Below, piece by piece: positions 21,279-21,431 of a DNA stretch of 64,000 bases. Below the pieces are notes generated by a model. It searched no databases and was not told the DNA's origin. It worked only from the letters and a program-made list of their open reading frames with translations. The first letter of the stretch is position 1, and each line of letters starts with the position of its first letter. The stretch covers positions 1,653,001-1,717,000 of the forward strand of contig NZ_JANJZA010000001.1 in assembly GCF_026157035.1 (NCBI RefSeq). Reading direction: 5' to 3'. Source of the stretch: Sphingomicrobium nitratireducens (lineage in GTDB: Bacteria; Pseudomonadota; Alphaproteobacteria; Sphingomonadales; Sphingomonadaceae). Made by a program: the position numbers and the translations under genes.

Positions 21279-21431
21279 GAATCGTCCGCGATTCCGCGTC
21301 AAGATTCCGCGTGGAGTCAATCGCTTGGATGGTGAATCGACGATTTGTGCTCAAATCATGGAGAACCACAACATGTTGAGTCCTCGCTGGCAGGCGGGAC
21401 TCAAGACCTTGTGGTGTGACTCGAAAGACTC
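21279..21431. promoter_or_regulatory. GANTC cluster in the ccrM leader (nine sites)
   Basis: GANTC sites start at 21279, 21290, 21303, 21314, 21334, 21378, 21398, 21418 and 21427. One site per 256 bp is the random expectation. Spacings are 11, 13, 11, 20, 44, 20, 20 and 9 bp, near whole helical turns. The region spans from 35 to 187 bp upstream of the ccrM start and should hold its promoter; a TTGAC lies twice on the minus strand (near 21313 and 21302). Confidence 0.8.
21365..21415. repeat. Long imperfect inverted repeat in the ccrM leader
   Basis: Arms ACCACAA and TTGAGTCC (21365-21371, 21376-21383) are mirrored by GGACTCAA and TTGTGGT (21397-21404, 21409-21415), with a 4/4-base internal bulge and a 13-base loop. 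Two GANTC sites lie symmetrically inside. It could be an operator, an RNA hairpin, or the rnhB terminator. Confidence 0.75.

Follow-up and report, generated by a model that had tools for sequence, protein, structure and literature searches.

The window, i.e., the whole stretch of 64,000 nucleotides that was analysed, contains ccrM and, upstream of it, rnhB, both on the minus strand and separated by a gap of 195 bp (21245-21439); the coordinates of the features discussed here are collected in Table 1. The product of ccrM matches the NCBIfam CcrM model (NF050803) with an E value of 1.9e-188 and 625.6 bits, a score that lies under the curated cut-off of 830. The nine GANTC sites which the initial annotation had located between the two genes are all present, starting at 21279, 21290, 21303, 21314, 21334, 21378, 21398, 21418 and 21427 and thereby occupying 153 bp. 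The window as a whole is depleted of GANTC about fourfold (85 sites vs 353 expected from dinucleotide shuffles), so that nine sites within 153 bp far exceed chance; at the density of the window 0.18-0.20 sites would be expected over the 149 possible starts (Poisson P ~4e-13), and the next densest independent places of the 64 kb hold four sites each. Two other places of the window can be mentioned: positions 15320-15377, where the 3' end of a gene whose sequence looks pntA-like contains four GANTC in 58 bp together with a short inverted repeat, and a further GANTC cluster at 36354-36460.

The spacing of the nine sites had been described as near-helical, a description that receives moderate support: with a helical repeat of 10.5 bp a mean resultant length of 0.67 is obtained (P = 0.0097 against random placement), but the signal vanishes at periods of 10.0 bp (P = 0.55) and 11.0 bp (P = 0.22).

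Table 1. Features of the ccrM-rnhB locus in the coordinates of the window
Feature	Position	Strand	Remarks
ccrM, GANTC adenine methyltransferase, 383 aa	20093..21244	-	NCBIfam NF050803
Proximal promoter-like module TTGACGCGGAATCGCGGACGATTCAGG	21276..21302	-	TTGAC, with GANTC at +8 (21290-21294) and +19 (21279-21283)
Two more GANTC (21303, 21314), immediately upstream of the proximal module	21303..21318	-	Found in some near relatives (e.g., L003, L007, L008)
Possible third, weaker NrdR-like box GCACAAATCGTCGATT	21335..21350	-	GANTC 21334-21338 at one end; distance to box 2, 31 bp
NrdR-type box 2 ACTCAACATGTTGTGG	21366..21381	-	GANTC 21378-21382 fused to the end facing box 1
NrdR-type box 1 CCACAAGGTCTTGAGT	21399..21414	-	GANTC 21398-21402 fused to the end facing box 2; spacing of the two boxes, 33 bp
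Site I2, second GAGTC beside site I	21418..21422	-	26/133 leaders
Site I, conserved GAGTC 17-18 bp upstream of box 1	21427..21431	-	131/133 distal-module leaders, central base always G
rnhB, RNase HII (ribonuclease HII), upstream neighbour of ccrM	21440..22021	-	NCBIfam, above curated cut-off

A CcrM match was found in 58 of 61 genomes (that of the window included), in all 149 genomes drawn from the family and in 74 of the 86 drawn from the class, some of these being weak. The leaders compared were 36 from the genus Sphingomicrobium, 104 from the rest of the family, 22 from families elsewhere in the order and 60 from families elsewhere in the class. The family set, which with three genus genomes amounts to 107 of the 149, combines the loci listed by the search with a single genome for every further genus. 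Of the 74 class matches 14 were left aside: the genome of the window itself, a member of the family, a strong match (G290) and 11 that were weak or partial. L001 duplicates L002, and L031 and L036, which start inside ccrM, were dropped. In one genome (L038, G010; completeness 86%) the match to ccrM is split in two and has an internal stop, possibly an assembly error.

The count of GANTC in related ccrM leaders, which had been proposed as a check, revealed an enrichment over control segments in all four groups. On average, 250 bp of leader contain 6.53 sites in the genus (n=36), 5.75 in the family (n=104), 5.14 in the other families of the order (n=22) and 2.83 in those of the class (n=60), vs 0.77 (n=35), 0.57 (n=104), 0.18 (n=22) and 0.58 (n=57), respectively, in segments taken farther upstream. 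The cluster belongs to ccrM and is conserved across the genus, the family and the order.

Two modules can be recognised in the leader. The proximal one has the form TTGAC-N3-GANTC-N6-GANTC, the first GANTC being found at +7 to +11 and the second mostly at about +19. TTGAC followed by GANTC occurs in 33/36 genus, 87/104 family, 17/22 order and 26/60 class leaders and in none of 218 control segments, and the second GANTC lies at +18 to +20 in 33, 71, 13 and 17 of these leaders, respectively. The two sites are kept while their central bases vary, and a conserved pair with a free central base suggests the pattern to be expected if methylation is read. The TTGAC and its conservation point to a putative promoter of the GcrA/CcrM type: gcrA is present in the genome of the window and GANTC sits within the promoter-like stretch. 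A scan with the sigma-70 consensus found no promoter. An extended motif, YGAKTCK, has been reported for Caulobacter, with no such preference in Brevundimonas (PMC7987155); the window's own proximal site, CGATTCA, matches by eye the first part of this motif only. A TTAACC half-site lies within 75 bp upstream in 41 of the 120 genus and family leaders having the proximal module (controls 0/119) and is absent from the window's own ccrM leader. A DnaA-type box, TGTGGATAA, is found downstream of TTGAC in 31 of the same 120 leaders, 27 times at +28, and in none of the 119 controls; its position is fixed and close to where transcription presumably starts (e.g., L096, L103 and L117).

The distal module consists of two dyads of the form CnCWA-N4-TWGnG which in most leaders are 32-33 bp apart. 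A profile of the module recognised it in 36/36 genus, 97/104 family and 0/22 order leaders, and the corresponding pattern matches 84 of the 149 family genomes, adjoining ccrM in 82 of the 84 (compared by eye), with three matches of the reversed control; it occurs away from ccrM in G150 and G140, and G181 has one copy beside ccrM and one elsewhere. Box 2 lies upstream of TTGAC at a median distance of 78 bp (IQR 78-79, range 66-90; 98 leaders), and this near-fixed distance suggests that the two modules act together. They are separable, since the seven family leaders lacking the distal module all retain TTGAC..GANTC.

Conservation letter by letter was determined in 98 leaders, 97 from the family and one from the genus. 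Within the 16-bp dyads the invariant letters are C2, C4, A6 and G13 of box 2 and G13 and G15 of box 1, C4 being conserved at 99-100% and G13 at 100%, whereas the letters required solely for GANTC are retained in 91-95%, a comparison to be read bearing in mind that some of the invariant letters also serve GANTC or its central base. Furthermore, wherever the distal site is a GANTC its central base is fixed: over 133 leaders it is the same in 131/131 cases for site I, G in 107/107 for site II and C in 108/108 for site III.

These data bear on the interpretation originally given to the cluster, namely an enlarged and cooperative version of the methylation feedback on ccrM. In its pure form nine equivalent and helically phased sensors would be bound by GcrA or CcrM. 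The enrichment of GANTC in the ccrM leaders of all four groups, the phasing at 10.5 bp, the free central base of the proximal pair and the presence of gcrA all speak in favor of such a pure methylation feedback. However, the fixed central bases of the distal sites, the lower conservation of the letters serving GANTC alone compared to those of the NrdR boxes, the separability of the two modules and the near absence of GANTC from the order-level operator described below (1/22) speak against it, and we consider it unlikely. What stands of the enlarged feedback is the enrichment linked to ccrM and the proximal pair with its varying centre; the leader is otherwise a mosaic, and the premise of a single cooperative array of equivalent sites is not supported.

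The invariant dyad letters and the fixed central bases led to the NrdR box being tested, NrdR being the ATP/dATP-sensing repressor of ribonucleotide reductase (RNR) genes. A strict half-box pattern gave in the genome of the window three matches, one in the ccrM leader and two within ORFs, as many as its reversed control; a single-box pattern is therefore uninformative and a matrix for tandem boxes was used instead. Of 30 upstream regions of family nrdA genes, 20 yielded tandem boxes by the NrdR consensus, and the matrix was trained on these alone; the second reductase locus (L064) displayed a weak box only. With this matrix 36/36 genus, 97/104 family and 22/22 order ccrM leaders exceed the 99% level of dinucleotide shuffles. 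A score of at least 12 is reached by 36/36 genus, 93/104 family, 22/22 order and 17/59 class leaders (the 60 minus one with a short upstream region), by none of the 218 farther-upstream segments and by 5 of 88 ccrM coding segments, and a score of at least 15 by 36, 86, 20 and 12 leaders, respectively, and by no control; on account of the five coding segments at 12 (none of which reaches 15) the tandem score is not perfectly specific, and across the class it is patchy. The window's own operator scores 29.6, the best value of the 64 kb, the next place free of its boxes scoring 10.0; a possible third box in the window's own leader gives with box 2 a pair score of 18.2.

In 132 of 133 leaders the best pair falls within the distal module, with a spacing of 33 bp in 105, 32 bp in 26 and 31 bp in one; for boxes of 16 bp, the search covered gaps of 15-17 bp. 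With ATP and dATP bound, NrdR has been reported to bind two boxes 14-17 bp apart (PMC12051234), so that their centres are separated by an integer number of helical turns, a range that includes the gaps of 15-17 bp found in these 132 leaders, the 33-bp spacing (17-bp gap) being at its workable edge. Residues D15 and R17 of NrdR are reported to come close to the bases of the major groove, and decisive importance is ascribed to conserved GC pairs that are nine positions apart, their change costing 50- to >100-fold in binding (PMC9110341). Positions 4 and 13 are complementary in both boxes of all 93 leaders considered (those scoring at least 12), and the NrdR encoded by the window's own genome carries D15, R17 and RRRR. 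The distal dyads match tandem NrdR boxes and represent a putative operator. Their target is ccrM and not an RNR operon, unlike the known NrdR operators, which precede RNR operons and often overlap the RNA polymerase site. An operator of the NrdR type is nonetheless proposed, because binding does not depend on a location upstream of RNR genes, which is merely where the examples known so far are found.

In the other families of the order the pair of boxes is found in all 22 cases within the coding end of rnhB, with the boxes 32 bp apart (AACGCAGGATATGGT...GCACTAAAGCTTGTGG and variants); in the first of these boxes position 6 is a G. When synonymous codons are redrawn, the score of the pair in rnhB falls, with P<=0.05 in 22/22 and P<=0.01 in 21/22 cases (median z 4.0), whereas the same redraw on 106 genus and family rnhB control genes gave a median z of -0.2, with 9/106 at P<=0.01. 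A score above that of the synonymous-codon shuffles indicates that in these families the DNA sequence itself is kept, beyond the protein. Recurring codons at the 3' end of rnhB (GCA GGA TAT GGT; GCA CTA; L039-L060) are likewise kept at the DNA level, and in some genus genomes the distal module overlaps the end of rnhB.

The two arms of the repeat are 84% complementary and a stretch of 90 nt folds better than its shuffles (z -4.46), so that an inverted repeat working as RNA between rnhB and ccrM (a hairpin terminator, an attenuator or a small RNA) can be envisaged. Against this reading, pairing between the boxes does not exceed that of partner-shuffled boxes over 93 leaders (z -2.2 to 2.5 at 16 positions) with no clear covariation, each arm is itself a partial dyad and the repeat lies within coding sequence in the other families of the order. 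An Rfam search returned two chance-level matches, neither near the gathering score, and a consensus scan for a terminator-like site found none. The RNA element, which combines a stable fold with no clear covariation and Rfam matches at chance level, was rejected and is regarded as highly improbable.

Fusion of GANTC to one end of a box occurs in 35/36 ccrM operators of the genus and 86/93 of the family, compared with 4/26 nrdA operators and with 1/22 order-level and 4/17 class-level ccrM operators; rare in the last three sets, it mainly characterises ccrM in Sphingomonadaceae. Both facing box ends carry GANTC in 91 of 133 leaders and one end does so in 32 more, the site being missing at site II in 26/133 and at site III in 25/133. 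In the fused box 2 the last C of GANTC coincides with C4 and the methylated adenines would fall on positions 1 and 3. The even spacing of the GANTC sites is due, at least in part, to the geometry of the boxes. In four nrdA operators (L172, L176, L177 and L183) one NrdR box starts with GATTC, and CcrM might touch reductase control there.

Not everything in the distal leader can be ascribed to NrdR. Directly upstream of box 1 the sequence GAGTC-YTT-NNN-GCCACACC is strongly conserved, and neither NrdR nor GcrA accounts for it. Downstream of box 2, family leaders (e.g., L083 and L076) contain an element resembling GGACTC-TTTCGTTC, whose GANTC, among the 93 leaders that have one there, is 19 bp away from site III in 53 leaders and 30 bp away in 19; the difference is close to a single helical turn and suggests that a further factor is bound. 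Site I and this element, both outside the NrdR account, imply at least one more factor. A different dyad-binding regulator having NrdR-like sites, with GANTC as part of its recognition site, could explain their conservation, and the T found at position 3 of the fused box ends, where nrdA boxes mostly have A, departs from the nrdA boxes in the same sense. Yet a matrix trained on nrdA detects the module with none of 218 controls, and the order-level version within rnhB (GCACTAAAGCTTGTGG) is near the nrdA form; such a regulator seems to us improbable.

The preferred reading is that ccrM is probably an NrdR target and that in Sphingomonadaceae CcrM methylates the putative operator of its own dNTP-sensing regulator. 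The proximal module would be a promoter of the sigma-70 type containing two methylation sites; through GcrA, which would read these sites, it would sense the methylation state. The distal module would be a tandem NrdR operator placed about 78 bp upstream of TTGAC, and an NrdR operator preceding ccrM would place this gene under control together with the supply of DNA precursors. Since the facing half-sites carry GANTC, CcrM would introduce N6-methyl groups into box 2 at positions 1 and 3, and into box 1 at the mirror positions, directly beside the conserved C4 needed by NrdR, so that NrdR and CcrM should compete for, or modify, each other's access. The outcome would be a nucleotide-gated methylation feedback on ccrM. 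From a distance of about 78 bp the mechanism of repression is not obvious, known operators often overlapping the RNA polymerase site; NrdR might act by bending or looping the DNA, or in some other way. Promoter activity, binding of GcrA and NrdR, repression, the sign of the methylation effect and timing are all inferred from the sequence.

A stronger form of this reading is a dNTP-gated switch, in which occupancy by NrdR and methylation by CcrM would be mutually exclusive, the dATP/ATP ratio would time ccrM and the methylase would record the decision on the operator; the operator would be old in the order, where elsewhere it lies within rnhB, and GANTC would have been gained in Sphingomonadaceae. 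This form is advanced tentatively, its chances being somewhat short of even.

How the expression of ccrM is timed has long been a classic question in work on the cell cycle of alphaproteobacteria. A conserved NrdR operator, if true, would add to the epigenetic clock a metabolic input, that of the deoxynucleotide pool, and would mean that NrdR regulates more than reductases. Furthermore, the fused boxes provide a testable case of one methylation site doubling as a repressor contact, and the version within rnhB would be an operator hidden in coding sequence. A literature search extending over titles, the beginnings of abstracts and some passages found no NrdR-CcrM link; the original phylogenetic-profiling paper on NrdR and RegPrecise lie outside that search, and an earlier listing of ccrM there is possible.

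Compared to the tandem NrdR boxes of RNR promoters, the ccrM operator shares the CnCWA-N4-TWGnG dyads, C4/G13, a distance of 31-33 bp from centre to centre and the presence of nrdR. It differs in that its target is a DNA methyltransferase, in that the facing half-sites of the family are fused to GANTC and in its position, far upstream of the core promoter or, elsewhere in the order, inside rnhB. The sigma-70 promoters controlled by GcrA and CcrM in Caulobacter and Brevundimonas likewise have GANTC within a TTGAC promoter-like stretch, and gcrA and ccrM are both present here; unlike in that class, however, the two GANTC of the ccrM leader have near-fixed offsets (+8/+9 and +19), and the class accounts for the proximal pair only.

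The ccrM leader of Caulobacter, too, has methylation sites, and a TTAACC half-site, present in 41 of the 120 genus and family leaders, is a further common feature; on the other hand, the present leaders have more sites, a distal operator of the NrdR type and, in 31/120, a DnaA box. In a comparative study, the Caulobacter ccrM promoter is activated by CtrA, the timing of ccrM is attributed to CtrA and, through predicted motifs in some groups, to DnaA, and GANTC upstream of cell-cycle genes, with ccrM among the genes studied, had already been examined (PMC2877005). Finally, MucR and CtrA have been reported to shield GANTC from CcrM with a resulting local hypomethylation (PMC5172544), a precedent for competition between NrdR and CcrM; in both cases the bases recognised by CcrM are also those of a DNA-binding protein, whereas here the protein would be NrdR and the gene controlled would be ccrM itself.
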